DNA of 64,000 bases. Origin: Bacteroidales bacterium (GTDB lineage Bacteria; Bacteroidota; Bacteroidia; Bacteroidales; P3). Shown here piece after piece: positions 4,177 to 55,510 of the stretch. The first letter of the stretch is position 1; the number at the start of each line of letters is the position of its first letter. Where the stretch lies: NCBI GenBank assembly GCA_017483575.1, contig JAFUWF010000006.1:43303-107302 (forward strand), read 5' to 3'. The notes below the pieces were generated by a model, which saw only the letters and a program-made list of their open reading frames with translations, made no database searches and was not told the origin of the DNA. The position numbers were made by a program, and so were the translations under genes.

Positions 4177-7100
4177 ATGGTTAGAAGAATCTTTGTTGAA
4201 AAGAAGGCTCCTTTCGCCGTGAAGGCCAAGGAACTGAAAACCGAAATGAGCGAATACCTCGGCATCGAGGCCGAGGAGGTGCGCGTGCTGATCCGCTACG
4301 ACATCGAGAACGTCAGCGACGAGACCTACCAGAAGGCCAAGGGCACCGTCTTCAGCGAGCCGCCGGTGGACGACCTCTACGAGGAGGAGTTCCCCCACAA
4401 GGAGAGCGACTTCTGCTTCACGGTGGAGTACCTGCCCGGCCAGTTCGACCAGCGCGCCGACAGCGCCGAGCAATGCGTGCAGCTGCTGTGCGACAGCGAG
4501 CAGCCCATCATCCGCTCGGCGACCACCTATCTGATTACTCCGAGTGCTCAGCGTAATCCGAAGGGCTTCTCCGAGGCCCAACGCAACGCCATCGTCGCCC
4601 ACTGCGTCAACCCTGTGGACAGCCGTGTGACCGACGGCCCCAAGCCCACGACCCTTGAGGACCACTTCGACGAGCCGGCCGATGTTATTGTCTTCGATGG
4701 TTTCAAGGATATGCCTGAGGACCAATTGAAGGAACTCTATGGTTCTCTCGGGCTTGCCATGACTTTCGCCGACTTCAAGCATATTCAGCGTTACTTCCAC
4801 GACGAAGAGAAGCGCAACCCCACCATGACGGAAATCCGCGTGCTTGACACCTACTGGAGCGACCACTGCCGCCACACCACCTTCGCCACCGAGCTGAAGG
4901 ATGTGCAGTTCGACGACGGCTACTACCGTCCACTCATCGAGGGCGCTTTCAAACAGTATCTGGCTGACCACAAGGAGCAGTATGCAGGCCGCACGGACAA
5001 GTATGTCTGCCTGATGGACATCGGCACCCTGGCCGCCAAGCGCATCAAGAAGATGGGCTTGCTGGACGACCAGGAGCCCAGCGATGAAATCAACGCCTGC
5101 TCCATCGTGGTGCCTGTTACCATCGACGGCAAGGAGGAGGAGTGGCTCATCAACTTCAAGAACGAGACTCACAACCACCCGACGGAGATTGAGCCCTTTG
5201 GCGGCGCCGCCACCTGCCTGGGCGGCTGCATCCGCGACCCGCTCAGTGGCCGCACCTACGTCTACCAGGCCATGCGCGTCACCGGTGCTGCCGATCCTAC
5301 GAAGCCTCTCAATGAGACCCTCGCCGGCAAACTGCCGCAGCGCAAGATTGTCACCACCGCCGCCCACGGCTACTCAAGCTACGGAAACCAGATCGGCCTT
5401 GCCACGGGCTTGGTCAACGAGGTGTACCACCCCAACTATGTGGCCAAGCGCATGGAGATTGGCGCCGTCATCGCCGCCGCCCCGCGCCGTGCCGTGAAGC
5501 GCCTGACCAGCGACCCCGGCGACATCATCATCCTGCTGGGTGGCCGCACGGGTCGCGACGGCATCGGCGGTGCCACGGGTGCCTCAAAGAGCCACACCAC
5601 CAAGAGCCTCACCACCTGCGGTGCCGAGGTGCAGAAGGGCAACGCCCCCACCGAGCGCAAGATACAGCGCCTGTTCCGCCGCGAGGAGGTCTCAAGCCTT
5701 ATAAAGAAGTGCAATGACTTCGGCGCCGGCGGCGTCAGCGTGGCCATCGGCGAGTTGGCCGACGGCCTGCAGATCAACCTCGACAAGGTTCCCAAGAAAT
5801 ATGCCGGCCTCGACGGCACCGAGCTCGCCATCAGCGAGAGCCAGGAGCGCATGGCCGTGGTGGTCGACCCCAAGGATGTGGACCAGATGCTCAAGTATGC
5901 CGACGAGGAGAACCTCGAGGCCACGGTCGTCGCCACCGTCACCAAGGAGCCGCGCATGGTCATCAGCTGGCGTGGCAAGGAGATTGTCAACCTCAGCCGC
6001 CGCTTCATCGACACCAACGGCGCCCACCAGGAGACCACTGTCCGCGTCAAGATGCCCGAGAAAATTGAAAATGGAAAATTGAAAATTGAAAATTCGCTGC
6101 CGCACCCGGATAATTCTCAATTCTCAACTCTCAATTCTCAATTGAAAGACCTCTGGCTCCAAACCCTCTCCGACCTCAACGTCTGCTCGCAGAAGGGCTT
6201 GGTGGAGATGTTCGACAGCTCCATCGGAGCCGGCAGCGTTGTGATGCCCTATGGTGGCAAGTACCAGCTGACGCCCACTCAGAGCATGATAGGCAAGCTG
6301 CCCTTGCTCGACGGCAAGTGCGACACCGTCAGCATCATGGCCTATGGCATGGATCCCTACCAGATGAGTTGGAGTCCCTTCCATGGTGCCGCCTATGCGG
6401 TGCTGAACAGTGTGGCTAAGATTGCCGCCGCCGGTGGCGATGCCAGCCGGGTGCGCCTCACCTTCCAGGAATATTTCAAGAAGCTCGGCAACGACCCTTA
6501 CCGCTGGGGCGAGCCTTTCAGCGCCCTGCTCGGCGCCTACAGCGCCCAGATGGGCCTCAAGCTGCCCAGCATCGGCGGCAAGGACTCCATGTCCGGCACC
6601 TTCAACGACATCGACGTGCCGCCCACGCTGTGCAGTTTTGCCGTGGGCATGAGTGACCTGAAGCATGTGGTCACCCCCGAGCTGAAGAAGGCTGGCAACA
6701 AACTGGTGCTCCTCGACGTCAAGGAGGCCGACTACGGCATGCCCAACTACGAGGATGCCCTCGGCCAGTACGCCGCCCTGCGCCGAGCCATCGAGGCCGG
6801 CAAGGTGTGCAGCACCTATGTCGTCGGCTTCGGCGGCCTCATCGAGGCGGTCAGCAAGATGGCCTTCGGCAACAAACTGGGTGTGAAACTCAGCGTCTCG
6901 CAAGGTCTCACGGCCAAGAACTACGGCTACATCGTGGTCGAGGTGCCTTCGGTGGACGGCTTGCCGTTCCGCTGCAAGGAGATTGGCGAGGTGACTGACA
7001 ATGCCGCCTTTGAGGTGAATGGCGAAAAGATTACCGTCGACGAGGCCCTTGCCGCATGGCAGAAGACGCTCGAAGGTGTTTTCCCCACCCGCACCAACCA

Positions 7101-7992
7101 AGCGGAAAGTGGAAAGATGAAGGTGGAAAGCCCGCTCTTCAATGCCCCCGCCGACAAACTTTCAACTTTCAACTTCCAACTTTCAACTTCGGCCAAGCCC
7201 CACGTCTTCATTCCCGCCTTCCCCGGCACTAACTGCGAGTACGACAGCGCCCGCGCGTTCAACCGCGCCGGTGCCGAGAGCGAGATCATCGTCTTCCGCA
7301 ACCAGAACGGCCAGCAGATCCGTGAGAGCGTGGACGCTTACGTCGAGGCTATTCGCCGCAGCCAGATCATCATGGTTCCCGGCGGATTCAGCGCCGGCGA
7401 TGAGCCCGAAGGCAGCGCCAAGTTCATCACCAGCGTCTTCCGCAACGCCAAGATTGCCGATGCTGTCATGGAACTCCTTAATAAGCGCGACGGTCTGATG
7501 CTTGGCATCTGCAACGGTTTCCAGGCCTTGGTGAAGTTAGGCCTCGTGCCCTACGGCGAGATTCGACCCCAGGCCGAGGATGCCCCCACGCTCACCTTCA
7601 ACACCATCGGCCGCCACCAGAGCAAGATGGCCTATACGCGCATCACCTCCAACCTCAGCCCGTGGCTGCGCAAGGCCGAGCTGGGCGCCACCTACGTCAT
7701 CCCCATCTCGCACGGCGAGGGCCGCTTTGTGGCTCCGCAGGAGTGGATTGACCGGCTGTTCAAGAACGGCCAGGTTGCCACACAGTATGTCGACCTGCAG
7801 GGCAACCCCACCATGGACGAGGAGTACAACATGAATGGCTCCTACATGGCCATCGAAGGCATCACCAGCCCCGACGGCCGCGTCTTTGGCAAGATGGGCC
7901 ACAGCGAACGCAGAAGCCTCGGTAGCGCCATGAACATCTATGGCAGCGACGACCAGCAGATATTCGAGAGCGGCGTACAATACTTCAAGTAA
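4177..7992 (+). CDS. purL: Phosphoribosylformylglycinamidine synthase (single-chain)
   Basis: This 1271-residue enzyme carries out the fourth step of purine synthesis: FGAR + ATP + glutamine to FGAM. It is the large single-chain form, with an N-terminal PurS-like region, two PurM-like ATPase halves and a C-terminal glutamine amidotransferase. The amidotransferase nucleophile is Cys1112 in MLGICNGFQ, with His in ISHGEGRF. E. coli PurL is 1295 residues, so length is normal. The gene carries two in-frame repetitive insertions, at 6061-6146 (residues ~629-657) and 7102-7190 (~976-1005). They are low-complexity (IENGKLKIEN..NSQFSTLNSQL and SGKMKVES..STFNFQLSTS) and sit in linkers, the second just before the amidotransferase domain. 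The stop overlaps the next start by one base. Confidence 0.97.
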   Translation: MVRRIFVEKKAPFAVKAKELKTEMSEYLGIEAEEVRVLIRYDIENVSDETYQKAKGTVFSEPPVDDLYEEEFPHKESDFCFTVEYLPGQFDQRADSAEQCVQLLCDSEQPIIRSATTYLITPSAQRNPKGFSEAQRNAIVAHCVNPVDSRVTDGPKPTTLEDHFDEPADVIVFDGFKDMPEDQLKELYGSLGLAMTFADFKHIQRYFHDEEKRNPTMTEIRVLDTYWSDHCRHTTFATELKDVQFDDGYYRPLIEGAFKQYLADHKEQYAGRTDKYVCLMDIGTLAAKRIKKMGLLDDQEPSDEINACSIVVPVTIDGKEEEWLINFKNETHNHPTEIEPFGGAATCLGGCIRDPLSGRTYVYQAMRVTGAADPTKPLNETLAGKLPQRKIVTTAAHGYSSYGNQIGLATGLVNEVYHPNYVAKRMEIGAVIAAAPRRAVKRLTSDPGDIIILLGGRTGRDGIGGATGASKSHTTKSLTTCGAEVQKGNAPTERKIQRLFRREEVSSLIKKCNDFGAGGVSVAIGELADGLQINLDKVPKKYAGLDGTELAISESQERMAVVVDPKDVDQMLKYADEENLEATVVATVTKEPRMVISWRGKEIVNLSRRFIDTNGAHQETTVRVKMPEKIENGKLKIENSLPHPDNSQFSTLNSQLKDLWLQTLSDLNVCSQKGLVEMFDSSIGAGSVVMPYGGKYQLTPTQSMIGKLPLLDGKCDTVSIMAYGMDPYQMSWSPFHGAAYAVLNSVAKIAAAGGDASRVRLTFQEYFKKLGNDPYRWGEPFSALLGAYSAQMGLKLPSIGGKDSMSGTFNDIDVPPTLCSFAVGMSDLKHVVTPELKKAGNKLVLLDVKEADYGMPNYEDALGQYAALRRAIEAGKVCSTYVVGFGGLIEAVSKMAFGNKLGVKLSVSQGLTAKNYGYIVVEVPSVDGLPFRCKEIGEVTDNAAFEVNGEKITVDEALAAWQKTLEGVFPTRTNQAESGKMKVESPLFNAPADKLSTFNFQLSTSAKPHVFIPAFPGTNCEYDSARAFNRAGAESEIIVFRNQNGQQIRESVDAYVEAIRRSQIIMVPGGFSAGDEPEGSAKFITSVFRNAKIADAVMELLNKRDGLMLGICNGFQALVKLGLVPYGEIRPQAEDAPTLTFNTIGRHQSKMAYTRITSNLSPWLRKAELGATYVIPISHGEGRFVAPQEWIDRLFKNGQVATQYVDLQGNPTMDEEYNMNGSYMAIEGITSPDGRVFGKMGHSERRSLGSAMNIYGSDDQQIFESGVQYFK
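6061..6146 (+). repeat. Family A inverted-repeat element inside purL (copy 1)
   Basis: The left arm is repeats of AAAATTGAAAATTG and the right arm is repeats of the complement, TTCTCAATTCTCAA, around a short GC-rich centre. The element is read through without a stop and adds about 29 residues. Confidence 0.8.
7102..7190 (+). repeat. Family A' inverted-repeat element inside purL (copy 2)
   Basis: The left arm is GGAAAGTGGAAAGATGAAGG and the right arm repeats the complement-like CTTTCAACTTTCAAC. The reading frame stays open. It is a related but distinct family from the copy at 6061. Confidence 0.75.
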
Positions 7993-8542: not shown

Positions 8543-8546
8543 GAAT

Positions 8547-9398: not shown

Positions 9399-9565
9399 CG
9401 GACCTCCCTTTATGCTTCGCTCTCGCGGCCATGCCGGGCAACTTCGTCATCGACAGCGCCCGCAACGGCCTCTACGAAATCCAGCCCCTACGCCAAGCGT
9501 CTCTTCGACCCTGGCAGCTACCTGCCCAAAGATACGGACAAATGATCGACGAATTAACAAATTGA
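9395..9565 (+). pseudogene. Short gene remnant with frameshift
   Basis: An ATG overlapping the previous stop opens a 56-codon frame that reads plausibly for ~30 residues (MTDLPLCFALAAMPGNFVID) and then turns into nonsense. A +1 shift near 9480 restores a protein-like tail (PYAKRLFDPGSYLPKDTDK) ending in TGA at about 9544. This looks like the two ends of a decayed or internally deleted gene. I cannot name the family. Confidence 0.45.
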
Positions 9566-9583
9566 CAAATTAACGAATTAACG
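9551..9583 (+). repeat. AATTAAC/AATTGAC short repeat
   Basis: Alternating GAATTAACAAATTGAC and AAATTAACGAATTAAC units fill the space between the remnant and the next start codon. They serve as the 5' leader of the CobW-family gene. Confidence 0.6.
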
Positions 9584-9585
9584 AC

Positions 9586-10848
9586 ATGAACAATACCATC
9601 CCCGTGCTGCTGCTGACAGGCTACCTCGGCAGCGGCAAGACGACCCTCCTCAACCGCATACTGAACAACAAGCGCGGCATCCGCTTCGCTGTCATCGTCA
9701 ACGACATCGGCGAGGTGAACATCGACGCCGACCTCATCGAGAAGGGTGGCATCGTGGGCCAGAAGGAGGAGAGCCTCGTGGCCCTCCAGAACGGCTGCAT
9801 CTGCTGCACGCTGAAGATGGACCTCGTGGAGCAGCTGCGCGACATCACGTCGCAGCGCCGTTTCGACTACATCGTCATCGAGGCCAGCGGCATCTGCGAG
9901 CCCGCGCCCATAGCTCAAACAATTGAAAGTTTAAAATTGAAAATTGAAAATTCGGCTGACGCGACCGATAATTCTCAATTCTCAATTTTCAATTCTCAAT
10001 TACCCATTCTGGACAGCATCGTCACCGTCGTCGACGCCCTGCGCATGAAGGACGAGTTCGGCAGCGGCCACAACCTCCTCAAGCCCGGCCTGGCCGAGGA
10101 CGACATCGAAAACCTCGTCATCCAGCAGATCGAGTTCTGCAACATCATCCTCCTCAACAAAGCCTCCATGGTCAGCTCCGACGAGCTGGAGCGCATCCGC
10201 CAGATTATCCGCGCCATCCAGCCCAAGGCCGAAATCATCGACTGCGACTACTGCGACATCGACTTCGACCGCATCCTCCACACCGGCCTCTTCGACTTCG
10301 ACCGCGTGGCCACCTCCGCAGCCTGGATTAAAGAGATTGAAGGCCACCACGACGACGATGATGACGACGACGATGACGACCATTCCGAACATTCAGACCA
10401 CTCCGAGCACTCCGACCATCACCACCACGAGCACCACGAGCACCACCACGACCACGACGAGGGCGAAGCCGAGGAATACGGCATCTCCACCTTCGTCTAC
10501 TACCGCCGCGAGCCCATGAACATCGGCCGCTTCGACGAATTCGTGGCCCGCCATTGGCCCAAAGGCATCATCCGCGCCAAAGGCATCTGCTGGTTTTTGA
10601 GCGAGCCCGACACCTGCTACCTCTTCGAGCAGGCCGGCAGCCAGGTCTCCCTGCGCGACACCGGCCAGTGGTACGCCACCATGCCCGACCGCGAGCTGCA
10701 GGACTTCATGCGCCGCAACCCCGACCTCCTGCGCGACTGGGACGACACCTACGGCGACCGCATGCAGAAGCTCGTCTTCATCGGCCAGCACCTCGACCGC
10801 GCCGCCATCACCGCCGCCCTCGACGCCTGCCTCGCCAAAAGCGTCTGA
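9586..10848 (+). CDS. CobW/P47K family zinc-type GTPase with His/Asp-rich metal loop
   Basis: This 420-residue G3E-family GTPase resembles the COG0523 metallochaperones (YjiA/ZNG1 type). It has Walker A GYLGSGKTT (12-20), the metal-binding CICC (71-74) in LQNGCICCTLK, the base-recognition region LNKAS, and a C-terminal CobW_C domain. Between the two domains lies a run of ten Asp followed by a Ser/Glu/His stretch and a His-rich tail (residues ~253-292), a probable metal store or sensor. Two repeat-derived segments are in frame: a family A element (9921-10001, residues ~113-139) inside the G domain just before LDSIVTVVDA, and a HSEHSDHSEHSD stretch (10381-10420). Zinc or cobalt homeostasis is inferred, and no Zur-type operator was found. 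Confidence 0.9.
   Translation: MNNTIPVLLLTGYLGSGKTTLLNRILNNKRGIRFAVIVNDIGEVNIDADLIEKGGIVGQKEESLVALQNGCICCTLKMDLVEQLRDITSQRRFDYIVIEASGICEPAPIAQTIESLKLKIENSADATDNSQFSIFNSQLPILDSIVTVVDALRMKDEFGSGHNLLKPGLAEDDIENLVIQQIEFCNIILLNKASMVSSDELERIRQIIRAIQPKAEIIDCDYCDIDFDRILHTGLFDFDRVATSAAWIKEIEGHHDDDDDDDDDDHSEHSDHSEHSDHHHHEHHEHHHDHDEGEAEEYGISTFVYYRREPMNIGRFDEFVARHWPKGIIRAKGICWFLSEPDTCYLFEQAGSQVSLRDTGQWYATMPDRELQDFMRRNPDLLRDWDDTYGDRMQKLVFIGQHLDRAAITAALDACLAKSV
9921..10001 (+). repeat. Family A inverted-repeat element inside CobW-family gene
   Basis: AAAATTGAAAATTGAAAATT on the left is mirrored by TTCTCAATTCTCAATTTTCA on the right. The arms match the purL copy at 6061. The element is read as LKLKIENS...NSQFSIFNSQL. 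Confidence 0.8.
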
Positions 10849-11941: not shown

Positions 11942-12187
11942 CTTGTTGATGTTTTTATTCGGCTCTTCCGCACCCCGTCGAGCAAATGTATTTATAACAA
12001 GAAGCGTGGCACCGTATGCCGCTTCCCGAAAGGTGGTCCTAGGAAAAACCATGAATAAAGAAGATGCAACAAGCCCACGCTATAAAAGCGAAGACCATTA
12101 CACTAATCCTGTTATTCTTGGAATTTCCTAGGTTCCCTTTCGCAGAATAAGCATAACGCTTCGACGATTTCCTTCCGAAATCGGCTG

Positions 12188-12219
12188 CAAAAATACAAAA
12201 ATAAATCGGACTGACAAAA
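12188..12219 (-). promoter_or_regulatory. Promoter, leftward
   Basis: On the minus strand TTTTG (12215-12219) and TATTTTTG (12188-12195) are 19 bp apart. The likely target is the lipoprotein gene at 11941. Confidence 0.65.
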
Positions 12220-12224
12220 ATAAA

Positions 12225-12256
12225 TTTTGCCAGTCCGAAAAATAGTTGTATTTTTG
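12225..12256 (+). promoter_or_regulatory. Promoter, rightward, no gene downstream
   Basis: TTTTG (12225-12229) and TATTTTTG (12249-12256) are 19 bp apart. The 20 bp that follow the -7 box repeat those of the pepD promoter at 12841. The only annotated gene ahead is on the opposite strand. Confidence 0.6.
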
Positions 12257-12348
12257 CAGTCGGAAATCAATAGGGGAACAGTCCAGTTCAGACGTCCACA
12301 ATTTGGCGATGACCTTCCGAGCGAGCCAGCCTGTCGATTTCTTTTTTT

Positions 12349-14403: not shown

Positions 14404-14445
14404 GTGCCCCGAAAGGCTGTCAATCAGCCCTATAGGTCGCCCCTT

Positions 14446-14577
14446 CTCATATAGTATGCATATAGTATTCATATAGTTCTCATATAGTATTCATATACTA
14501 TATATAAGAACTATATGAGAAGTATATGTATACTATATGTATACTATATAAGAACAGTCGAATAAAGTGCCTGTTTG
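14446..14577. repeat. AT-rich palindromic element, copy 1 (family G)
   Basis: About 130 bp of CATATAGTATTCATATAG-type units whose right part (AAGAACTATATGAGAAG, TATACTATAT) is complementary to the left. A second copy at 41838-41970 is nearly identical through the same trailing tail (AGAAC-n-GTCGAATAAAGT). Both copies are intergenic. Confidence 0.8.
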
Positions 14578-14606
14578 ACCCCTGTTTGGGACGGTTTGTC
14601 AAGGAT

Positions 14607-22325: not shown

Positions 22326-22472
22326 ACACACTCCTCAGTCAGCGCTCCGCGCTGCCAGCTCCCCTAACTTAGGGGAGCAGCCAGATAGTATTGTTTCCCT
22401 AATATAAACTATCTTCACTCCTCCCCTAAGTTAGGGGAGGTGGACGCCCGCAGGGCGGACGGAGGAGTGTGT
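22326..22472. mobile_element. Family B element, intergenic copy (147 bp)
   Basis: Perfect 11-bp terminal inverted repeats ACACACTCCTC (22326-22336) and GAGGAGTGTGT (22462-22472) enclose two further palindromes, CCCCTAACTTAGGGG and CCCCTAAGTTAGGGG. There is no ORF, so it resembles a MITE or REP-like element. Copies with the same ends lie in ispE and tex. Confidence 0.75.
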
Positions 22473-33315: not shown

Positions 33316-33413
33316 TTGTATATGGTATTCTTTATTATATACGGTCATAACGTGCCCTTCGCCACTTTATTGTGTGGCGACTGAAAATAAAATCACCATG
33401 CTTCCACTGGGCG

Positions 33414-37350: not shown

Positions 37351-37387
37351 AATGTGATGGGTTTAATTATTGTTATTTTTCAAAGTG

Positions 37388-37419
37388 CAAAAGTACATAT
37401 ATTTTTTGATATGGCAATA
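37388..37419 (-). promoter_or_regulatory. Promoter of the Omp28/T9SS gene
   Basis: On the minus strand TACTTTTG (37388-37395) and TATTG (37415-37419), 19-bp spacer. It is back to back with the tex promoter. Confidence 0.7.
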
Positions 37420-37449
37420 ATTTTTTTTCAAAAAATGTTTTATTTTTCG

Positions 37450-37457
37450 TATTTTTG
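37450..37457 (+). promoter_or_regulatory. -7 box at the tex start codon
   Basis: TATTTTTG ends 4 nt before the ATG at 37462. Initiation at the usual distance would fall on or next to the start codon, giving a leaderless mRNA. The -33 region is only T-rich. Confidence 0.6.
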
Positions 37458-37461
37458 CAGC

Positions 37462-41743: not shown

Positions 41744-41837
41744 AAATTTTTCCCCAATAACGCAGCAATTCCTTTTTTATTGTATAAAAAATATTTGTCC
41801 CAAACCCCGACCCCATAGGTGTTTTCTTCGACCTATG

Positions 41838-41970
41838 TCATACAGTATTCATATAGTATACATATAGTTCTCATATAGTATTCATATACTGTATATAAGA
41901 AGTATATGAGAAGTATATGTATACTATATGTATACTATATAAGAACGGTCGAATAAAGTACCTGTTTGGT
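41838..41970. repeat. AT-rich palindromic element, copy 2 (family G)
   Basis: It is nearly identical to 14446-14577, including the same internal order of CATATAG units and the tail AGAACGGTCGAATAAAGT. Both copies have an ATAGGT sequence shortly upstream. Confidence 0.8.
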
Positions 41971-41997
41971 CTGGTTTTGAGGAGGTTGCGGAAGGGG

Positions 41998-44151: not shown

Positions 44152-45130
44152 AGGCACGTATAATATCGGTCACCAGCCGGTGGCGGATGACGTCGCTGTT
44201 GTTGAGTTCGATGACTTCGATGCCCTTCACGTCCTTCAGTATCTGTGTGGCCTGGAGGAGGCCGCTCTGCTGGTGGCGCGGGAGGTCGACTTGGGTGAGG
44301 TCGCCGGTGATGACGAACTTGGCGTTGCGGCCCATGCGTGTGAGGAACATCTTGAGCTGTGCGGAGGTGGCGTTCTGGGCCTCGTCGAGGATGACGAAGG
44401 CGTTGTCCAGCGTACGGCCGCGCATGAAGGCCAGGGGGGCTATCTCGATGGTGTTGTCCTCCCAGTAGGAGAGGAGTTTCTGTTGGGGAATCATGTCGCG
44501 CAGGGCGTCGTAGAGCGGCTGGAGGTAGGGGTCCAGCTTGTCGCGCAGGTCGCCGGGGAGGAAGCCCAGGTTCTCGCCGGCCTCGACGGCGGGGCGCGTG
44601 AGGATGATGCGGCGCACGTCCTTGTTCTTCAGGGCGCGGACGGCCATGGCCACGGCGGTGTAGGTCTTGCCGGTGCCGGCGGGGCCGATGGCGAAGACCA
44701 TGTCGTTCTCGTGCACGGCCTTGACCAGACGCTGCTGGTTGGGGGTGCGGGCTTTGATGAGGAGGCCGTTGCGGCCGTGGACGAGCACCTCGTCGCTCAC
44801 CTCGCTCTCGGGGCTGCCGCCGCTTGCCGCCCCGGGGTGGCGTTCGCTCCATTCCGTCGCGTTCTCCATGATGCCCATGATGGCGTTCTCCGTCAGGCGT
44901 CCGAACTTGTCGTAGTAGGTCCTCATGGCCTGCAGCTTGCCCTCGAACCAGGCGATGTCCTCGTCGCTGCCGATGGCTTTCAGCATGTCGCCGCGGGCGA
45001 TGAGCTTCAGTTTGGGGAAGAGCAGGCGCACAAACTCGAGCATGCGGTCGTTGGTGCCCCAAAAGCGCGAGTAGTCAATCTCTTCGAGCGAAAAAATCTT
45101 TTCTATGGGTGTGTCATTACTCACTGTCAT
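44129..45130 (-). CDS. phoH: PhoH family ATPase
   Basis: This 333-residue cytoplasmic P-loop ATPase belongs to the PhoH/PhoL group, linked to RNA metabolism. Walker A is [14 protein letters not shown], Walker B is [14 protein letters not shown], and [21 protein letters not shown] is the conserved sensor region. The N-terminal ~110 residues are the usual small alpha/beta domain. It is first in an operon with ispE (23-bp overlap). A TATCTTTG -7 box on the minus strand (45172-45179) precedes it, divergent from manC. Confidence 0.95.
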
Positions 45131-45229: not shown

Positions 45230-46276
45230 ATGAAGAATCATATCGTTATCATGGCCGGCGGCATCGGTAGCCGCTTCTGGCCGCTGAGCACGCCCGAATA
45301 TCCTAAACAGTTCATCGACATCCTGGGATGCGGACGCACGCTCATACAGCTCACCGTGGACCGTTTCAAGGGCCTTTGCCCCATGGAGAACTTCTGGGTG
45401 GTGACCAATGCCGCCTATGTGGACATCGTCCGTCAGCAGTTGCCGGAGATGCCCGTGGAGCATATCCTTGCCGAGCCTGCGGCACGCAATACGGCGCCCT
45501 GCATTGCCTGGGCCTGCTGGCGCATCAAGGAGGAAGACCCCGAGGCCAATGTCGTTGTTACGCCCGCCGACGCCGTGGTGATGAATCCCGAGGAGTTCCG
45601 CCGCGTTATCGGCAACGCCCTGGCGTTCACCGAGAAGAGCGACGCCATTGTCACTATCGGCATCAAGCCCTCGCGTCCGGAGACGGGATACGGCTACGTG
45701 GAAAGCCTCACCCCCGGCCCCTCTCCAAAGGGAGAGGGGAGTGAGATATGCAAGGTCGCTTCCTTCAAGGAGAAGCCCAACCGCGAGGTGGCGGAGCAGT
45801 ATCTACAGGCAGGCAACTACCTGTGGAACGCCGGCATCTTTGTGTGGAACGTGAAGACTATCACCGACGCCATCTCCACCTACAAGCCCAACATCGCCGC
45901 CGACATGGAGCGCATGCGCACCGACAAGGACGTGCAGGAGGTGTTCCCGCAGTGCGAGAAAATCAGCATAGACTATGCCGTCATGGAGCCCGCCGCTGCC
46001 GACGGCAAAGTGTACACGCACCCCGCCGACTTCGGCTGGAGCGACCTGGGCAACTGGGCTTCGCTGCACGACAAGTTGCAGAAGGACGCCAACAGCAACG
46101 GAGCCGTGGGCCCTGTGCACCTCTACGAGTGCAGCAACTGCGTGGTCCATGCCGAGGACGCCGAGAAGGTGGTCCTCCAGGGACTGGACGGATACATCGT
46201 CAGCGCGAAAGGCGGGCGCCTGCTGGTCTGCCGCCGCAGCGAGGAGCAACGCATCAAGGAGTTCTCACAACAATAA
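45230..46276 (+). CDS. manC: Mannose-1-phosphate guanylyltransferase
   Basis: This 348-residue enzyme makes GDP-mannose for surface glycans. It has the nucleotidyltransferase signature MAGGIGSRFWPLS..PKQFIDILG, the sugar-site motif ASFKEKPN, NAGIFVWN, and the FGWSDLGNW segment. It lacks the C-terminal isomerase domain of bifunctional forms. A 39-bp repeat (45707-45745) adds LTPGPSPKGEGS between GYGYVES and EICKVASF, a surface turn in this fold. The ATG is downstream of a TATTTTTA -7-like box. Confidence 0.95.
   Translation: MKNHIVIMAGGIGSRFWPLSTPEYPKQFIDILGCGRTLIQLTVDRFKGLCPMENFWVVTNAAYVDIVRQQLPEMPVEHILAEPAARNTAPCIAWACWRIKEEDPEANVVVTPADAVVMNPEEFRRVIGNALAFTEKSDAIVTIGIKPSRPETGYGYVESLTPGPSPKGEGSEICKVASFKEKPNREVAEQYLQAGNYLWNAGIFVWNVKTITDAISTYKPNIAADMERMRTDKDVQEVFPQCEKISIDYAVMEPAAADGKVYTHPADFGWSDLGNWASLHDKLQKDANSNGAVGPVHLYECSNCVVHAEDAEKVVLQGLDGYIVSAKGGRLLVCRRSEEQRIKEFSQQ
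45707..45745 (+). mobile_element. Family C element inside manC (39 bp)
   Basis: CTCAC and GTGAG ends enclose GGCCCCTCTCC-AAA-GGGAGAGGGG, a near-perfect hairpin. The length is 13 codons, in frame. Confidence 0.75.
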
Positions 46277-46727: not shown

Positions 46728-47525
46728 CTAACAATCTGTAATGTCGGTTGATACAAGGCGAAGATTTTCTACCATATCGCTTGCGATGAGGCTTGATTCC
46801 GACTGTTTCCGCACCGCAATATCGCCAATTTTGCCATGCATCTCGACAGCTTTGCATACCATACGGAAGGGGTCTCCCCCACCCTGCGCTGCCATACCGA
46901 GCAGGATGCCCGTCAGCACGTCGCCGCTGCCGGCGGTGGCCATGCCGGCGTTGCCGGTGTGGTTGACGTAAACGCGGCCATCGGGGGCGTAGACGTGGGT
47001 GCGGTGGCTTTTCTTGACGATGATGAAATTGCATTGTTTTGATACCTCGGCAGGATCTTCTGAGCCGAACATCCGTTCATACTCCCTTGCATGTGGGGTG
47101 AGAATTGAGAGTTGAAAATTGAGAATTGAAAATTGTTCTTTCGGGAGAGTGGCCAGGATGTTGAGGGCGTCGGCGTCGAGGACGAGGGGGACGCCGGCGG
47201 GGCGGGCTTCGAGGAGATGCAACAGGGCCTGCGCGGTGTCGGGGTGGGTGCCGAGGCCTGGCCCCACGGCGATGGCTCCGTAGCGCTCCAGGTGGTCGGG
47301 CACCGTGGTGAAACGGGTGTCGCTGGGGTCGATGCTGACCATGGCTTCGGGGAAGGCGGCCTGCATAGGGTCCACGCAGCGCTGGGGCAGGTGTACGCTC
47401 ACCAGGCCGCAGCCGCTTCTCAGGGCCGCCCTCGCCGCCAAGATGGCACAGCCCATGCGGCCGTAGGCGCCGGCGATGAGCAGCGCGTGGCCGTAGTCGT
47501 GTTTGGTTGTCTCGGGGTTTCTCAT
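46728..47525 (-). CDS. nnrD: ADP-dependent NAD(P)H-hydrate dehydratase
   Basis: This 265-residue repair enzyme of the ribokinase-like fold dehydrates damaged NAD(P)H hydrate. Conserved blocks: LIAGAYGRMGCAILAARAALRSG, AVGPGLGTHPD, LDADALNIL, LTPHAREYERM and the catalytic GNAGMATAGSGDVLTGIL. The N-terminal epimerase domain (YjeF_N) often fused to it is absent. A repeat-derived insertion (47101-47137; EQFSILNFQLSI) separates LNIL from LTPHA, where the family normally has a short turn. The ATG at 47525 is preferred to 47576, which would add a non-conserved extension. Confidence 0.92.
   Translation of the reverse strand: MRNPETTKHDYGHALLIAGAYGRMGCAILAARAALRSGCGLVSVHLPQRCVDPMQAAFPEAMVSIDPSDTRFTTVPDHLERYGAIAVGPGLGTHPDTAQALLHLLEARPAGVPLVLDADALNILATLPKEQFSILNFQLSILTPHAREYERMFGSEDPAEVSKQCNFIIVKKSHRTHVYAPDGRVYVNHTGNAGMATAGSGDVLTGILLGMAAQGGGDPFRMVCKAVEMHGKIGDIAVRKQSESSLIASDMVENLRLVSTDITDC
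47101..47137 (-). repeat. Family A half-element inside nnrD
   Basis: AGAATTGAGAGTTGAAAATT followed by GAGAATTGAAAATTG. It corresponds to one arm of the purL and CobW-family insertions. Confidence 0.7.
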
Positions 47526-49812: not shown

Positions 49813-49824
49813 GAGGTTGTAGAG

Positions 49825-52800
49825 TTAGGGCATCACAAAGCCTTCAGGCAGGATAGACAGGGTGAGGGTCACCGTGCTGTCGCAACCTGTGGCGGTGGTC
49901 AGCACACGCTCGTAGACACCGCTCTCGGTGAACACTTCGCCGTTCCACTCTATTGAGCCTTGACCCTGCATGAAGAGGGCTGTGTCGGCGCTGTGGTTAA
50001 CGGTGAGGGTCAGGGTCACGGTGCTGTCGCAACCACTGATGGTGGTGAAGTGCTGGACATACTCTCCGCTGACGGTATATGTCCGGTCGTTCCAATCATA
50101 GTAGTCGCAGGCAGTCTCGCTTACGGCCACTTCCACAGCCTGGCTGATGGTGAGGGTGAGGGTGGTCACGCTGTCGCAGCCGTTGGCGGCGGTGGTGGTG
50201 TAGGTGTAGTTACCGCTCTCGGTATAGGTCTCGCCGTTCCAGGTGTAGCTGTCGCAAGCGGTCTCGCTAACGGCATTGGTTACAGGCTGGTTGATGGTGA
50301 GGTTGAGGGTAATCACACTGTCGCATCCAGCGGCGTTGGTGACGGTGTAGGTAGCAGTGCTGTTGTTGGCGGTATAGGTCTCGCCGTCGATCCAGGTGTA
50401 GCTGCCGCAAGCCTCCTGCACGTCGATGCCAGTGGTGGCATTACGCACGGTCAGTTGCAGGGTGGTCACGCTGTCGCAGCCGTTGCTGCCGGTGGTGGTG
50501 TAGGTGTAGTCGCCGCTCTCGGTGTAGGTCTCGCCGTTCCAGATGTAGCTGTCGCAAGCGGTGGCGGTGACGATGGCCGTCTTGGGTTGTTTGACGGTGA
50601 GGGTCAGGGTCACGGTGCTGTCGCAGCCGTTGCTGCTGGTGAAGGTCTGGGTGTAAGCACCAGAAGCAGCATACTCAACATTGTTCCAGGTGTAGCTGCC
50701 GCAAGCGGTCTCGCTAACGGTGGTGGTTACAGTCTGGTTGACGGTGAGGGTCAGAGTCACAACCGAGTCGCAGCCGTTGGCGGCGGTGTAGGTCTTGTTG
50801 TAGTTTCCACTTACATTGTAGTAGGTGCCGTCCCAGATGTAGTAGCTGCAGGCGGCGTCAGCAATGTTGTTCTCAACACGGTTGTTGATGGTCAGGTTGA
50901 GGGTGGTAACCAGGTCGCAGCCGTTGGCACCGGTGCTGGTGTAGGTAGCGGTGTTGTTGTTGGCAGTGTAGGTAGTGCCATGCCAAGTGTAGCTGTCGCA
51001 AGCGGTGACGGTCTCAATGGCAGTAGAGCTGTTGTTCACAGTCAGCTGCAGGGTGGTCACGCTGTCGCAGCCGTTGGCGGCGGTGGTGGTGTAGGTGTAG
51101 TTGCCGCTCGTGGTATAGGTCTCGCCGTTCCAGGTGTAGCTGTCGCAAGCGGTGGCGGTGACGATGGCCGTCTTGGGTTGTTTGACGGTGAGGGTCAGGG
51201 TCACGGTGCTGTCGCAGCCGTTGGCGGCGGTGAATGTTTGGTTGTAGACACCAGTGGTAGTATACTCAACATCGTTCCAGGTGTAGCTGCCGCAAGAGCT
51301 CTCGCTGATGGCATTGGTTACAGGCTGGTTGACGGTGAGGGTCAGAGTCACAACCGAGTCGCAGCCATTGGCGGCGGTGTAGGTCTTGGTGTAGTCTCCG
51401 CTCTCGTTGTAGTAGTTGCCGTCCCAGATGTAGTAGCCGCAGGCAGCGTCGGCAATGTTGTTCTGAACGCTGCTGTTGATGGTCAGGTTGAGGGTCACAA
51501 CGGTGTTGCAGTTGCCATTGGCTACGGTGTAGGTAGCGGTGTTGTTGCTGGCGCTGTAGGTCACACCGTCAATCCAAGTGTATCTGTCGCAAGCGGTGAC
51601 AGTGTCTACGCTGGTGCCGGTAGTGAGGATGGAGAGCTGCAGAGTGGTCACGCTGTCGCAGCCGTTGCTGCCAGTGGTGGTGTAGGTGTAGGTGCCGCTC
51701 TCGGTGTAGGTCTCGCCGTTCCAGGTGTAGCTGTCGCAAGCGGCAGCGGTGACGGTAGCACTGGTGGGCTGGTTGACGGTGAGGGTCAGGGTCACGGTGC
51801 TGTCGCAGCCGTCAACAGACTGGTAGGTCTTGCTGTAGGCGCCGCTGGCAGCGTAGGTAGTGCCGTCCCAGGTGTAGCTGCCGCAAGCGGTCTCGCTAAC
51901 GGTGGTGGTTACAGTCTGGTTGACGGTGAGGGTCAGAGTCACAACCGAGTCGCAGCCGTTGGCGGCGGTGTAGGTCTTGGTGTAGTCTCCGCTCTCGTTG
52001 TAGTAGTTGCCGTCCCAGATGTAGTAGCTGCAGGTGCTGGCGATGATAGCGTTGGTCACATTGTGGTTGACGGTGAGGTCAAGGGTGACGGTGCTGTCGC
52101 AGCCAGTGCTGAGCTGGTACACGTAGGTCGGAGTGTTGGTGCTCTCGGTATAGGTATTGCTGTCAATCCAAGTGAAGCTCTCGCAAGCGGTCTGGACATC
52201 GGTAGAGGCCAGGCTGTTGCTGATGGTCAGAAGGAGGATGGCGGTACTGTCGCAACCATTAGCGGCGCCGCCTACATAGGTGTAGGTAACACTGCTGTCG
52301 AGCTGGCTCTCGGTGTAGGTCTCGCCGTTGTCCCAGGTGAAGCTCTCGCAGGCTTGACGTTCGTCAATGCCGGTGAAGGTGTGGTTCAGGGTCAGGTTCA
52401 GAGTGGCGGTGCTGTCGCAGCCGTACTGGTTGGTGGTGTGGTAGATGCCAAGGGTCGAGGTGGTGTAGTGGAAGCCGTTCCAATCGTACATGGTGTCGCA
52501 GGTGACGACGGTCTCCGTGCTCTCGCTGCTGTAGTTGACAGTGAGGTTGAGCTGGGCGGTGCTGTCGCAACCCACGGCGTTGTGGTCATAGTAGAAGGCG
52601 GTGGTGGTGCGGAAGTAGTCAACATCGTTCCAGTTGAACTGCTCGCAGACCGTGGTGTCGAGGACGCTGATGGTGCTCTTCTTGACGGTCAGGTGCAGCG
52701 TGACGGTGCTGTCGCAGCCGTACTGGTTGGCGCCGGCGAAGAGGTGCGTCAGGGTGTCGACGCTCTCGGTGATGGCCTGGTGCTCGTACCAGTTCATGGT

Positions 52801-54171
52801 GTCGCAGACCACGGCAGTGGTGTCACCGGTGCTCTTGTAGTTGACAGTGAGCTTGAGTGTCACAGTGCTGTCGCAAGCCGCGGCGTTGGCACCGGCGAAG
52901 ACGTGCTTCAGGGTGTCGACGCTGGCGGTGATGCCGGTGTGCTCGTACCAGTCGAAGCTGTCGCAAACCACGGCGGTGGTGTCGCTGGTGGTGGCGTGAC
53001 GGATGGTCAGGTTCAGGGTCACCGTGCTGTCGCAACCGTTGGCGTTCTTATAGGTATAGGTGGGAGCCACGGCGGGAGTCACGGTGTAGGTGCTGTCGTG
53101 CCAGGTGAACTGGTCGCAGACGTCAACCGTGGTGTCGCCGGTGTAGATGTTGAGGTCGAAGTTGGCAACAAGGAGGGTGTCGCTCACAGGCGAGACGGTG
53201 AGGGTATCGTCGGTGCTCACCACATTGCCAAGGGTGTCGGTCCAGCTCACGAAGTGGTAGCACGGGGTGGCCTCGGCGATGACGGTGTAGTTGGCGAAGT
53301 GGCGGGCGACGCTGTCGCTGCCGCTCACGGTGCCGCAGTTGTCGCAGCTATCCATCACGCGGACGGCGAGCTGGTAGTGGTTGGTGTCGAAGACGGCTTT
53401 GACCGTGCTGTCGCTCACAGCCACAATCTCCAGGGTGTCGGCGGTGCCGAGCATCAGGCCGGTGGTGTCTTCCCAGTTCACGAAGTGGTAACCGGTGCCG
53501 GCCACGGCACGGAGGACGACGGCGTCGAGGTAATCGACGGTGTCGCTACCCGCCACGCTGCCCATGTGCTCGGCCTGGGGCTGGCCCACGATGGCGTACT
53601 GGTTCACGGTGAAGCGGGCCTCGAAGGCGGTGTCGCTCACGGGGCTGAACACAAAGGTGTCGGCAGTGCTGGCAAGCACGGTGTCGGCATACCATCCGGC
53701 GAAGGTGTATCCGTAGACGGTCTCGACGGTCAGCGTGTCGTTCAGGAAGTGCTTGTGCTGTCCGGCGAGGCTTGCGGTACCCATAGCCTGGGTGCTGTCG
53801 CGCGGGTCGTTCTGCACGGTGTAGGTAACATTATAGATATTGGTGTCGAAGCTGACGCTGACGGTGCTGTCCATGGTCATGGTGACCAGCACGGTGTCGT
53901 TGGTCAGATCATTCGGATTACTCGGAGTATTCTGATTACTCTGAGCATTCTCCCAGCTGGTGACATGGTAGCCTTCGGCGGCGGTGGCCACGATGGTCAC
54001 GGTGCTGTCGGCCATGACGGTGTAGGTGCCGTCGGCATTCTCGGCCACGAACACGGCGCTGTCGGCAGCGATGGTGCCCATCGCCTCGTCGGCCTCAAGG
54101 GTCAGCGTGTAGGGGTTGTGCAGGAAGTTGGCCACCAGGTGGGTGTTGTAGCGGATTGCGGTGTCAATCAC
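49825..54171 (-). CDS. Repeat adhesin, truncated at both ends
   Basis: About 1450 codons of surface-adhesin-like sequence. The N-terminal third has divergent InlB-type beta repeats (NPYTLTLEADEAMG, GYHFVNWEDTTG). The rest is 22 units of ~49 residues, each with two Cys, of the form CDSYTWNGETYxxSGxYxxT..NGCDSVTTLxLTV. A four-unit superrepeat (~0.6 kb) occurs three times between about 52040 and 50240. The C-terminal sorting domain is cut off by TAA at 49825. The N-terminus has no signal peptide: beyond ~54175 the frame runs antisense into a symporter fragment and stays open to 54360 by chance. A GTG at 54171 is the first start inside the native part. Probably a pseudogene unless the join is an assembly artefact. 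Confidence 0.75.
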   Translation of the reverse strand: MIDTAIRYNTHLVANFLHNPYTLTLEADEAMGTIAADSAVFVAENADGTYTVMADSTVTIVATAAEGYHVTSWENAQSNQNTPSNPNDLTNDTVLVTMTMDSTVSVSFDTNIYNVTYTVQNDPRDSTQAMGTASLAGQHKHFLNDTLTVETVYGYTFAGWYADTVLASTADTFVFSPVSDTAFEARFTVNQYAIVGQPQAEHMGSVAGSDTVDYLDAVVLRAVAGTGYHFVNWEDTTGLMLGTADTLEIVAVSDSTVKAVFDTNHYQLAVRVMDSCDNCGTVSGSDSVARHFANYTVIAEATPCYHFVSWTDTLGNVVSTDDTLTVSPVSDTLLVANFDLNIYTGDTTVDVCDQFTWHDSTYTVTPAVAPTYTYKNANGCDSTVTLNLTIRHATTSDTTAVVCDSFDWYEHTGITASVDTLKHVFAGANAAACDSTVTLKLTVNYKSTGDTTAVVCDTMNWYEHQAITESVDTLTHLFAGANQYGCDSTVTLHLTVKKSTISVLDTTVCEQFNWNDVDYFRTTTAFYYDHNAVGCDSTAQLNLTVNYSSESTETVVTCDTMYDWNGFHYTTSTLGIYHTTNQYGCDSTATLNLTLNHTFTGIDERQACESFTWDNGETYTESQLDSSVTYTYVGGAANGCDSTAILLLTISNSLASTDVQTACESFTWIDSNTYTESTNTPTYVYQLSTGCDSTVTLDLTVNHNVTNAIIASTCSYYIWDGNYYNESGDYTKTYTAANGCDSVVTLTLTVNQTVTTTVSETACGSYTWDGTTYAASGAYSKTYQSVDGCDSTVTLTLTVNQPTSATVTAAACDSYTWNGETYTESGTYTYTTTGSNGCDSVTTLQLSILTTGTSVDTVTACDRYTWIDGVTYSASNNTATYTVANGNCNTVVTLNLTINSSVQNNIADAACGYYIWDGNYYNESGDYTKTYTAANGCDSVVTLTLTVNQPVTNAISESSCGSYTWNDVEYTTTGVYNQTFTAANGCDSTVTLTLTVKQPKTAIVTATACDSYTWNGETYTTSGNYTYTTTAANGCDSVTTLQLTVNNSSTAIETVTACDSYTWHGTTYTANNNTATYTSTGANGCDLVTTLNLTINNRVENNIADAACSYYIWDGTYYNVSGNYNKTYTAANGCDSVVTLTLTVNQTVTTTVSETACGSYTWNNVEYAASGAYTQTFTSSNGCDSTVTLTLTVKQPKTAIVTATACDSYIWNGETYTESGDYTYTTTGSNGCDSVTTLQLTVRNATTGIDVQEACGSYTWIDGETYTANNSTATYTVTNAAGCDSVITLNLTINQPVTNAVSETACDSYTWNGETYTESGNYTYTTTAANGCDSVTTLTLTISQAVEVAVSETACDYYDWNDRTYTVSGEYVQHFTTISGCDSTVTLTLTVNHSADTALFMQGQGSIEWNGEVFTESGVYERVLTTATGCDSTVTLTLSILPEGFVMP
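53911..53952 (-). repeat. Family J repeat inside the adhesin
   Basis: ATTCGGATTACTCGGAGTAT and TCTGATTACTCTGAGCATTC; read as NAQSNQNTPSNPND. Same pattern as 57592-57640 and 32251-32322. Confidence 0.55.
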
Positions 54172-54345
54172 GGCGTCGACGACCGCTTCGTGCCCTACAT
54201 CGCCATCGCTTCGCCCGTCATCTGCTACTTCCTCAAACTCTTCTCGCCCACATGGTTCGGCTACACCTTCGGCTTCGAAATCCTCCTCCTCAACGGCCTC
54301 ATCACCTTCCTCCTCCTGCTCCTTGCCAAACCCAAACACGAATAA
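54172..54345 (+). pseudogene. C-terminal remnant of a sodium/solute symporter
   Basis: The plus frame reads DRFVPYIAIASPVICYFLKL and then FSPTWFGYTFGFEILLLNGLITFLLLLLA before the stop at 54345. This is the last-helix region of Na+/solute symporters (SSS family) in Bacteroidota. Upstream of ~54172 the plus strand is antisense to the adhesin, so the first ~450 residues are missing. Confidence 0.7.
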
Positions 54346-54589
54346 CGACAATGCAGACAACGACTTTAACGGCGAATTACTCTGATTCTGCGCGGCTTAA
54401 TAAACGGCGAATTACTCGAATTATGCGAATGCTACGCAGGGCAATGAGCGGCGAATTACTCGAATGCTCCAATGCAAACCGCATGTTGCGGTTTGCAAGT
54501 TGTCCCTGTTGTCTCCGTTGTCGTAAAAAAAAGAATCTGTAGCCGTTAACGAATTTTTAATTTTTAATTATTAATTTTTAATTGATAAA
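54346..54589. other. Intergenic repeats upstream of rnz
   Basis: CGGCGAATTACTCGAAT-type units occur three times (about 54371, 54414, 54450), then a hairpin GCAAACCGCA/TGCGGTTTGC (54475-54497), then an AT-rich TTTTTAATTTTTAATTATTA repeat (54552-54583) that forms the rnz leader. No gene. Confidence 0.5.
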
Positions 54590-55510
54590 GTGAACTTCTT
54601 CGTCACCATCCTCGGTTCGGGCGCCGCCCTGCCCACCGGACGCCGCCGCTGCAGCGCCCAGGTCGTTAACATCAACGGATTCAAGATGCTGCTGGACTGC
54701 GCCGAAGGCACCCAGGACCGCATACGCCAGCACCACCTCAAGCTCCAGAGCCTTGGCACCATCCTCATCTCGCACCTCCACGGCGACCACTTCTTCGGCC
54801 TCCCCGGCCTCCTCTCCACCATGCACCTCTGCGGCCGCACGGAGCCCGTCACCGTCGTGGCCCCCAAGGGCGCCAGGCAGGTCATCGAGACCACCTTCGA
54901 CCTCACCGGCAACCACATAGGCTATCCCATCAACTTCGTCGAGATGGACTTTGCCGAAGGCCTCCACCGCGTCTTCGAAAGTCCGCGCTGCACCGTCGAC
55001 GCTTTCCCCATCCTCCATTCCGTGCCCACCTACGGCTTCCGCATCACCGAAGTGCCTAGGAGTGGAGAGCGGAGAGTTGAGAGTGGAGAACGGAGAGTGG
55101 AGAACGGAGAGTGGAGAGCGGAGAGCGGAGAACGGCGAGCGGAGAACAAGCTTGCGCAATCAGGCGCTCTCCACTCTCCACTCTCCACTCTCCGCTCCCC
55201 CCGGGTCTACACCTACTGCTGCGACACGGAATACAACGAGAGCCCCGTGCCCTACATGCAGGGCGCCGACCTCCTGTGTCTGGAGTGTACCTTCGCTGAC
55301 GACCTTGCCGACCTCGCCCGCCAACGCCAGCACCTCACCGCCGGCCAGGCCGGCCAACTTGCCGCCCTGGCGCAGCCCAAACAGCTGCTGCTCACCCACA
55401 TCAGCGCACGCTACCACGAGCCCGACCTCCTCCTCCAGCAAGCCACGGCCCACTTCCCCCACACCCTCCTCGCCTCCGACGGCCTCGTGGTCCCAATAGA
55501 AAAAGGGTAG
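54590..55510 (+). CDS. rnz: Ribonuclease Z with in-frame repeat insertion
   Basis: This 306-residue metallo-beta-lactamase-fold endonuclease matures tRNA 3' ends. The N-terminus VNFFVTILGSGAALPT, the zinc motif ISHLHGDHFFGLPGLL, and CDTEYNESPV and LTHISARYHEP are conserved. A purine-rich repeat of ~140 bp (55060-55200) adds about 47 residues of Arg/Glu/Ser-rich sequence (SGERRVESGERRVENGEW) between YGFRITE and YTYCCDTEY. The core motifs remain intact. The start is GTG at 54590, matching the family N-terminus. Confidence 0.93.
   Translation: MNFFVTILGSGAALPTGRRRCSAQVVNINGFKMLLDCAEGTQDRIRQHHLKLQSLGTILISHLHGDHFFGLPGLLSTMHLCGRTEPVTVVAPKGARQVIETTFDLTGNHIGYPINFVEMDFAEGLHRVFESPRCTVDAFPILHSVPTYGFRITEVPRSGERRVESGERRVENGEWRAESGERRAENKLAQSGALHSPLSTLRSPRVYTYCCDTEYNESPVPYMQGADLLCLECTFADDLADLARQRQHLTAGQAGQLAALAQPKQLLLTHISARYHEPDLLLQQATAHFPHTLLASDGLVVPIEKG
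55060..55200 (+). repeat. Family D inverted-repeat element inside rnz
   Basis: The left arm is GGAGAGCGGAGAGTTGAGAG with many variants; the right arm is CTCTCCACTCTCCACTCTCC. The arms are complementary around a short centre (AAGCTTGCGCAATCAGG). No stop in the gene's frame. Confidence 0.8.

Follow-up and report, generated by a model that had tools for sequence, protein, structure and literature searches.

Families of short palindromic elements, probably mobile, within genes of a gut Bacteroidales genus

What is the origin of the short palindromic repeats that stand in frame inside conserved genes such as purL, ispE and rnz in a 64 kb stretch (hereafter the window) of the draft Bacteroidales genome G000 (1.96 Mb, 30 contigs, 77.7% complete)? 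We propose that several families of short, non-autonomous palindromic mobile DNA enter both genes and intergenic DNA in one gut Bacteroidales genus, and we regard this as the probable explanation. Family A, an 81-nt palindrome, carries much of the argument: its mobility is deduced from like copies in unrelated places together with empty sites in relatives. Sites without an element were found in relatives for the CobW-type gene, purL, rnz and ispE; in the case of rnz, a paralogue within G000 lacks it too.

Genomes are numbered G and extracted loci L. Repeats were counted in 457,331 nt of G000, comprising the window and 20 further stretches picked mostly for containing repeat-pattern matches; searches of fetched records refer to 363 records (2.59 Mb), which cover about a fifth of G000. 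Window genes were identified with NCBIfam and Pfam, and an element was called genic when a coding signal ran in one frame on both sides of it. The closest PurL proteins among the matches listed, where own or very near records may be omitted, belong to rumen and gut Bacteroidales bins (UBA3684, 89%); identity to Candidatus Colimorpha pelethequi is 76%. An Rfam search of the window returned four tRNAs.

Family A in open reading frames

Family A has a fixed design of 27 codons: a 32-nt arm, a 17-nt apex and a second 32-nt arm, with both arms built of 7-nt units. The left arm resembles AATTGAAAATxxAAAATTGAAAATTGAAAATT (32 nt) and the right arm AATTCTCAATTCTCAATTCTCAATTCTCAATT (32 nt). With the 81-nt body excised at fixed offsets from the apex, AATT stands at the left boundary in 15 of 18 coding copies and at the right boundary in 17 of the 18. 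The ends appear sharp, as judged from this AATT in most coding copies and from flanks that differ unless the host gene is shared; the right end of non-coding copies is less regular. The arms mostly pair with one mismatch per 7 nt (GAAAATT against the complement of GAGAATT or GAAAGTT). Long perfect palindromes are unstable in bacteria, and one mismatch per heptad may help the unit to persist.

A scan of the fetched loci yielded 28 coding copies, 27 of them distinct (L069 repeats the window purL), at 22 gene sites in 15 genomes; these copies came largely from protein searches, so that the set is biased towards open frames. Each encodes IENxKLKIENSADAxxNSQFSILNSQ or a peptide near it. According to Pfam, the hosts include ThiF, a GH20b/Fn3-associated protein, a RapZ/APH protein, DUF2229, the BipA/EF-G C-terminus, HSP90, the leucyl-tRNA synthetase editing domain, GH2, a tRNA methyltransferase HUP, two metallo-beta-lactamase folds, GH94, radical SAM, a periplasmic binding protein, glycosyltransferase 2, MoCF/CinA, A2M, peptidase M3, HPPK and cobW; the FGAM synthase gene purL is a further host. 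In the G000 sample, all eight two-armed copies lie in open frames.

The arms carry a TGA that falls in frame at only one place, the third left-arm junction from the apex. In the 18 coding copies this junction reads TTCA (8), TGGA (8) or TTTA (2), and the first two junctions read TTGA in 17 of the 18. TTGA is retained at the third junction in 8 of 10 non-coding copies (0/18 against 8/10, Fisher P=1.4e-5), a test that is partly circular because "coding" was defined by the open frame. This design set omits copies failing the 17-nt apex pattern (e.g., L325 and L331), L148, the duplicate L323 and four reverse-strand views. The peptide scan of coding copies was confined to the strand that reads the GAAAATT arm ahead of the other. 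When genes were instead called on both strands from the flanks alone, a test that recovered 32 of 33 typed family A copies, none of the 16 gene-spanning copies had a stop in the joining frame, and in each the GAAAATT arm preceded the other. TTGA stood at the third junction in none of these 16 and in 8 of the other 16 (P=0.0024), six of the latter group being open-frame by the peptide scan. Selection preserves the reading frame through family A copies in genes. That three different substitutions replace one stop suggests several rescues or several rescued lineages. The first-pass annotation, made from the window's letters, had attributed tolerance to lengths that are multiples of three. This does not hold for family A: both classes fit one 81-nt design and a heptad total of 10 is the commonest in each (11/19 coding, 6/10 non-coding), and what differs is the in-frame stop.

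Could the peptide itself be the unit of spread, that is, a functional protein module carried between genes by recombination, with the palindrome as a by-product? The coding copies do share a frame and a peptide, and in several species a conserved segment of ispE is replaced by a heptad peptide. Against this, non-coding copies with stops exist, codons in the apex are variable, and where other families occupy these loops the encoded peptide is a different one; we consider a module very improbable. That the inserts are assembly artefacts of metagenome bins, to which the draft state of all the genomes might lend some weight, is scarcely credible: frames are kept, and the same element occupies the same site in separate bins for the RapZ/APH gene (G000, G019 and G367, with G362 by reading), the A2M gene (G017 and G021), the GH2 gene (G359 and G015) and purL (G000 and G012).

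Protein loops occupied by different elements

The window purL (4177–7992, plus strand; TIGR01857, 1774.7 bits) contains two inserts. The first is a family A copy at 6063–6143 (plus strand, 81 nt, apex CGCTGCCGCACCCGGAT, peptide IENGKLKIENSLPHPDNSQFSTLNSQ), in a loop near residue 628. Among 28 sequences compared, a set that leaves aside G007 and G348, only G000 and G012 carry family A there and 26 do not. The same loop holds a CAGTGGT heptad palindrome with GGCTGACGCAAAC in G363, a heptad-like insert with GGCTGCCGCGA in G344, GAAAGTG heptads in G350, and nonamers of varied sequence in many other species. The copies in G000 and G012 share 98 identical nt over the element, compared with 89% and 83% identity in the 750-nt flanks and 56/60 and 55/60 in the nearest 60 nt; an element so much more alike than its flanks suggests that it spread, or was exchanged, recently at this loop. 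The second insert, a heptad palindrome in a linker (7104–7190, plus strand; GGAAAGT arm, AACTTTC arm), is common to several congeners, and the remaining congeners have other contents there. We also note that the loop nonamers of G004, G025, G340, G351 and G360 (L075, L072, L095, L087 and L084) have a unit that contains a 6-nt or 9-nt palindrome (ACTAGT, TCCGGA, TCTAGA, GCTAGC or ATTCAGAAT), and that near residue 119 the PurL of G012, G025, G363, G350 and G360 has an SGVxSGKWKVESEW-like segment, probably another heptad-derived loop.

Similarly, the CobW/ZigA-type GTPase gene (9586–10848, plus strand; NF038288 at 3e-105, below the curated cut-off; Pfam cobW and CobW_C) has a family A copy at 9921–10001 (plus strand, 81 nt, apex CGGCTGACGCGACCGAT). 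Across 30 loci (26 of the genus and four of the order), family A is found in G000 only and an ordinary loop in 27; in the same loop G012 carries a palindrome of the CCCCTCTCC type, and G001 an array of AATTCAA heptads.

Ribonuclease Z is encoded by rnz (54590–55510, plus strand; NF000801, 257.8 bits, cut-off 252), in which a GGAGARY heptad palindrome at about 55061–55199 (plus strand) accounts for 42–43 extra residues. The insert is missing from the second rnz of G000 (L179, G000:C23:16019-16804, ~85% identical) and from 19 aligned congener loci, among them G350, where a different heptad array occupies the site; this alignment omits 11 of 29 congener loci, of a type ~50% identical and similar in length to the window rnz, and adds G024. 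The insert aligns with a longer segment of B. subtilis RNase Z (1y44), which we take to be the flexible arm of the enzyme.

At 339 residues, the ispE product (43138–44157, minus strand; TIGR00154, 159.1 bits) is longer than those of 27 of 29 fetched loci (255–280 residues). A CTCCCC-type element at 43342–43528 (minus strand) adds about 61 residues and is missing from the 24 other loci aligned (five of the 29, L185, L197, L203, L208 and L211, were omitted); G346, whose ispE (L185) lies outside the alignment, has a different, longer insert at this site. A decayed heptad array at 43593–43629 (minus strand) encodes ILNSLFSI, and several congeners have a similar peptide. The second CTCCCC-type element (43955–44016, minus strand, 16 residues) is also present at this site in one of the 24 others (L184).

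Two inserts stand in the tex reading frame (37354–39579, plus strand, with the true start further in; Pfam Tex domains): the remnant of a GAAAGTG-type heptad array at about 37854–37876 (plus strand, WKDESGKY), and a compact CTCCCC-type element at 38178–38225 (plus strand, HTPQSALRAAIGEQ) with both inverted ends, ACACACTCCTCAGTC .. GAGCAGTGTGT. Both are missing from G024, the one relative compared, and both take the place of loops with a net gain of only four residues each. Likewise, a one-armed heptad array in nnrD (47100–47136, minus strand, EQFSILNFQLSI) substitutes for a loop of almost the same length, in a comparison that aligned 16 of 29 other loci; heptad-like peptides occupy that loop in several species. 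In the window manC, a CCCCTCTCC..GGAGAGGGG palindrome lies at 45709–45745 (plus strand). Finally, the DUF748/AsmA gene (31309–33348, minus strand; Pfam DUF748) has a Ser/Asn loop built of 9-nt units at about 32255–32325, which is not a palindromic element.

Thus one loop is filled by different elements in different species: three kinds in CobW, many in purL, two in rnz and two in ispE. Short in-frame repeats had been claimed for these eight genes, and all eight are open; the claim fails for DUF748 as far as a palindromic element is concerned. That several palindromic families lie in frame between conserved motifs, some of them also between genes, is borne out by family A, CTCCCC, GCCGGCG and CCCCTCTCC. 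The elements had further been described as insertions into proteins. Relatives do have sites without them, but loop residues were mostly replaced rather than only added: native residues are mostly gone where an element stands in CobW, purL, tex and rnz. Orthologue comparison shows most relatives to be without the inserts. The purL linker palindrome and the ispE insert at 43955–44016 are shared by some congeners, which bears out in part, within the genus, what the first-pass annotation had named as evidence against its view, namely orthologues with the same extra segments at the same sites.

CTCCCC elements, heptad arrays and the search for a mover

The CTCCCC family has inverted ends, ACACACTCCTC / GAGGAGTGTGT. 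Its 25 loci in the sample include at least 11 genic ones (the rule misses the ispE copies), each in the sole open frame of three and encoding SSPNLGE-like peptides. The string ACACACTCCTC[AC]GTC occurs exactly at six places, at four window sites: 22326 and 22458; 43342 and 43513; 44001; and 38178 in tex. With up to three substitutions allowed, the inverted end gives seven matches against two in the reversed window. The first of these sites is an element of miniature inverted-repeat transposable element (MITE)-like type between genes (22326–22472; inverted ends ACACACTCCTCAGTC / GACGGAGGAGTGTGT). At least 13 other G000 reading frames, each of 229 residues or more, contain the CTCCCC peptide of ispE. 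Two smaller families are also found: GCCGGCG repeats of repetitive extragenic palindrome (REP) type, with seven of 19 loci genic, and CCCCTCTCC, with two loci, both genic.

What moves the CTCCCC elements? In G346, ispE (L185:2089-3072) forms a 589-residue frame in which a DUF559 domain (PF04480, 96.1 bits) sits in frame between palindromes. The loop contains five direct copies of a CTCCCC-design palindrome (CTCCCCCTCTAAGATAGAGGGGG TGGACG..CGGACGGGGGCGTATG) and one inverted copy; three of the direct copies are spaced 78 nt (26 codons) apart, and DUF559 lies between the direct and inverted copies. DUF559 proteins are presumably endonuclease-like, and some plasmid records name them so. A DUF559 protein that moves CTCCCC-type elements, and perhaps others, would fit this arrangement, found at the very loop where the window ispE has its CTCCCC element. 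We give it a small chance, however: it is a single case in the fetched records, where neither tblastn nor motif search found a second pairing of DUF559 with such palindromes, and the domain may be a passenger. A literature search for DUF559 with palindromic repeats returned nothing related, judged by title.

Heptads are the prevailing array type. The sample holds 71 period-7 arrays against none in one Markov replicate; periods 8, 9, 10 and 11 gave 4, 4, 3 and 8 arrays, period 14 gave 31, and no array had any other period in the range 4–15. Under a looser rule the count is 51 heptad elements, built of varied units (GAGAATT, GGAGAGT, GAGTTAT, CAGTGGT, GAGGTCG and others), 16 of which have two arrays close together. 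Twenty-two of the 51 are genic and none of the 22 has a stop in that frame; the probability of this, were the frame random on the same strand, is 10^-3.57. By the same rule, 708 of 1455 random 80-nt segments are genic, so that heptad elements avoid genes little. Outside genes, a start codon lies within −6 to +15 nt of 12 of 29 arrays, compared with 79 of 1000 random non-genic segments. In the window, an 8-nt tandem array (9552–9585, plus strand) lies directly 5′ of the CobW start and an AATTTTT heptad array (54551–54584, plus strand) directly 5′ of rnz.

The distribution of heptads is patchy. The pattern (GARARYK)x4 is present in 67 of 79 sampled genomes of the genus (0 to 401 matches per genome, with none in the close relative G024), in 51 of 295 genomes sampled from the order and in none of three genomes from a second genus in the same family. 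The control, the pattern reversed, is likewise common in some genomes of the order, which we read as other heptads. Four congener samples contain arrays of periods 7, 8 and 11 in varying numbers. Palindromic arms flank the core GCTGNCGCA at 15 of its 87 occurrences, compared with 13 of 1500 places picked at random; among controls, five shuffled cores are so flanked at none of 180 sites, and GCTGNCGC followed by C, G or T at 7 of 224. As a genus-wide marker, GCTGNCGCAAGC proved weak: it has 13 matches against two reversed in G000, and elsewhere many matches lie 147–153 nt apart, in the manner of coding repeats.

Several further repeats are of note. Intergenic palindromes of 11-nt tandem units (CATATAGTATT) lie at 14408–14590 and 41797–41979 and are mutually 78% complementary; period-11 arrays also occur in congeners. 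Two large minus-strand reading frames (49825–54360 and 55628–61834) contain 147-nt and 36–42-nt coding repeats. TGCAAA..TAC motifs, which we take to resemble the Bacteroidota promoter (TAnnTTTG), occur at several places in the window and form an inverted pair at 12182–12262. In L066:2442-10187, short repeat inserts of about six kinds, some heptad and some nonamer, share the single reading frame of a 2581-residue GH94-type protein.

Might the arrays have arisen where they stand? Under local replication slippage, 7-, 8-, 9- and 11-nt arrays would form in unconstrained loops and between genes with no mobile element involved. Many arrays are one-armed and fit a plain direct-repeat array without a fixed design, many different heptads are found, and the purL nonamer loops vary between species. 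Heptanucleotides are, moreover, reported to outnumber every other class of long simple repeat in most genomes, and polymerase slippage has been proposed for them (Mrazek 2007, as cited in PMC4679880). Yet slippage cannot place a like 17-nt apex, two complementary arms and an equal length into 22 gene sites, and it leaves the core GCTGNCGCA between palindromic arms unexplained. For two-armed family A the fixed apex, arms and length rule it out, and as an explanation of the elements we hold it to be unlikely.

A further possibility is that host Y1 (RAYT-like, where RAYT denotes REP-associated tyrosine transposase) transposases move all of the palindromes by REP-type spread. G000 has three Y1_Tnp matches (L031, L032 and L033), each flanked, by reading, by its own different palindrome; one of these is the GCCGGCG repeat, which also sits in genes, and the lack of target duplication fits Y1 chemistry. 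Nevertheless, no pair of family A or CTCCCC elements surrounds the Y1 genes in L031–L033, and the one family A copy near a Y1 gene lies inside another reading frame. Nine of 25 heptad-rich genomes, several of them incomplete, have no Y1_Tnp match, and counts are uncorrelated. We think it quite improbable that Y1 transposases move all of the families. A reverse transcriptase making heptads by telomerase-like copying is not needed, and RVT_1 is unmatched in the incomplete G000 and in 16 of the 25 heptad-rich genomes. As for a phage or plasmid vehicle, two exact patterns were found in no stretch of viral contigs, and tblastn of the 27-residue peptide against plasmids and phages, with the low-complexity filter on, gave no match.

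We return to mobile palindromes as the probable explanation and suggest how they might spread. New copies would arise via a foldback (single-stranded hairpin) copy, an intermediate suggested by the palindrome together with the lack of target duplication. An enzyme acting in trans would join the hairpin copy to the target without duplicating it, and target bases would often be lost in the process. Most insertions into genes would be lost; survivors would fall in a protein loop, and a surviving family A copy, after one arm base change, would be translated as a 27-residue loop. Thereafter the arms of 7-nt units might be altered by slippage, and by conversion with the opposite arm or with other copies; such rewriting would put new heptads on the same apex, and one loop could be refilled by another element. 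Tentatively, and with rather more doubt than confidence, we extend this to a general proposal: these would be coding palindromic mobile elements in which the apex is kept, 7- or 9-nt arm units are rewritten, and hairpin copies are joined without target duplication by an enzyme unrecognised in this role, DUF559 being one candidate, so that loops of essential proteins become exchangeable cassettes across the genus.

Several points weigh against these proposals. No enzyme could be tied to family A, and across 79 genomes the number of heptads is correlated neither with Y1_Tnp matches (rho 0.12, P=0.28) nor with those to RVT_1 (rho -0.15, P=0.18). Among 28 family A copies there is no consistent target duplication (the longest abutting match is 6 nt in one and 3 nt in two). 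The apex is inverted relative to the arms in three coding copies (L342, L349 and L353), and orientation is therefore less fixed than the arms suggest. Six of the ten non-coding copies in the design set come from a single genome, G331. The nearest sequences compared are 80–95% identical, a distance at which loss of target bases at insertion is indistinguishable from later change of the loop. Lastly, the copies may have spread without any transposition, by gene conversion that started from a small number of old ones.

To our knowledge, mobile DNA tolerated inside essential proteins is known mainly from Rickettsia. The present rumen and gut genus offers many species, clear empty sites, a range of 0 to 401 matches per congener and, in the lost stop codon, a signature of selection, and it opens to strain comparison both the spread of such elements and the question of whether they feed new sequence into old folds. 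For annotation, we note that the shared peptide led here to spurious homology matches between unrelated proteins.

Relation to known repeat systems

How do these elements compare with previously described repeats? REPs and bacterial interspersed mosaic elements (BIMEs) associated with RAYT (Y1) transposases are short palindromes in many copies and are, by name, extragenic. Our elements resemble them as numerous short palindromes, and the GCCGGCG family lies beside a Y1 gene in G000. They differ in that family A and CTCCCC are not paired around the three Y1 genes and that copy numbers show no correlation with Y1 counts. The genic share is 11 of 25 for CTCCCC loci (ispE copies missed) and 7 of 19 for GCCGGCG loci, set beside the 708 of 1455 random segments. 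The CTCCCC elements share terminal inverted repeats with MITEs, and the label MITE-like rests on these rather than on target duplication or a parent transposon; family A differs from MITEs in having no consistent target duplication among its 28 copies.

The heptad arms invite a second comparison. Cyanobacterial short tandemly repeated repetitive sequences (STRRs) are tandem repeats of heptamers, and our arrays are like them in their 7-nt tandem units, patchy distribution and frequent position just 5′ of start codons. In two papers, bacterial heptamer repeats are described with the units TAACTGA (PMC4679880) and, in Xanthomonas and Nostoc, GGGAATC (PMC4692102), the latter including some inverted arrangements. 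As portrayed there, heptamer repeats are mainly intergenic direct repeats, whereas family A combines two complementary arms and a fixed apex as a unit inside genes.

Our literature search found no description of such elements in Bacteroidales and no paper containing the element peptides or REP DNA, in agreement with the first-pass annotation, which knew of no description of a multi-family system of this kind in the order. It had also likened the repeats to the Rickettsia palindromic elements (RPEs), the original papers on which are reportedly those of Ogata in 2000 and 2002. This likeness is supported: in frame in unrelated genes, with the same peptide, and missing from most of the orthologues compared, the elements behave, by analogy, like RPEs. 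As with RPEs, short palindromes of fixed design lie inside unrelated genes and encode a conserved peptide, and multiple families occur in one genome, some of them also outside genes. The differences are equally specific. The host belongs to another phylum; family A measures 81 nt, compared with about 150 bp for RPEs as described in a review (PMC10969869); the family A arms consist of 7-nt tandem units around an apex; and the same loop is refilled by different families across species.

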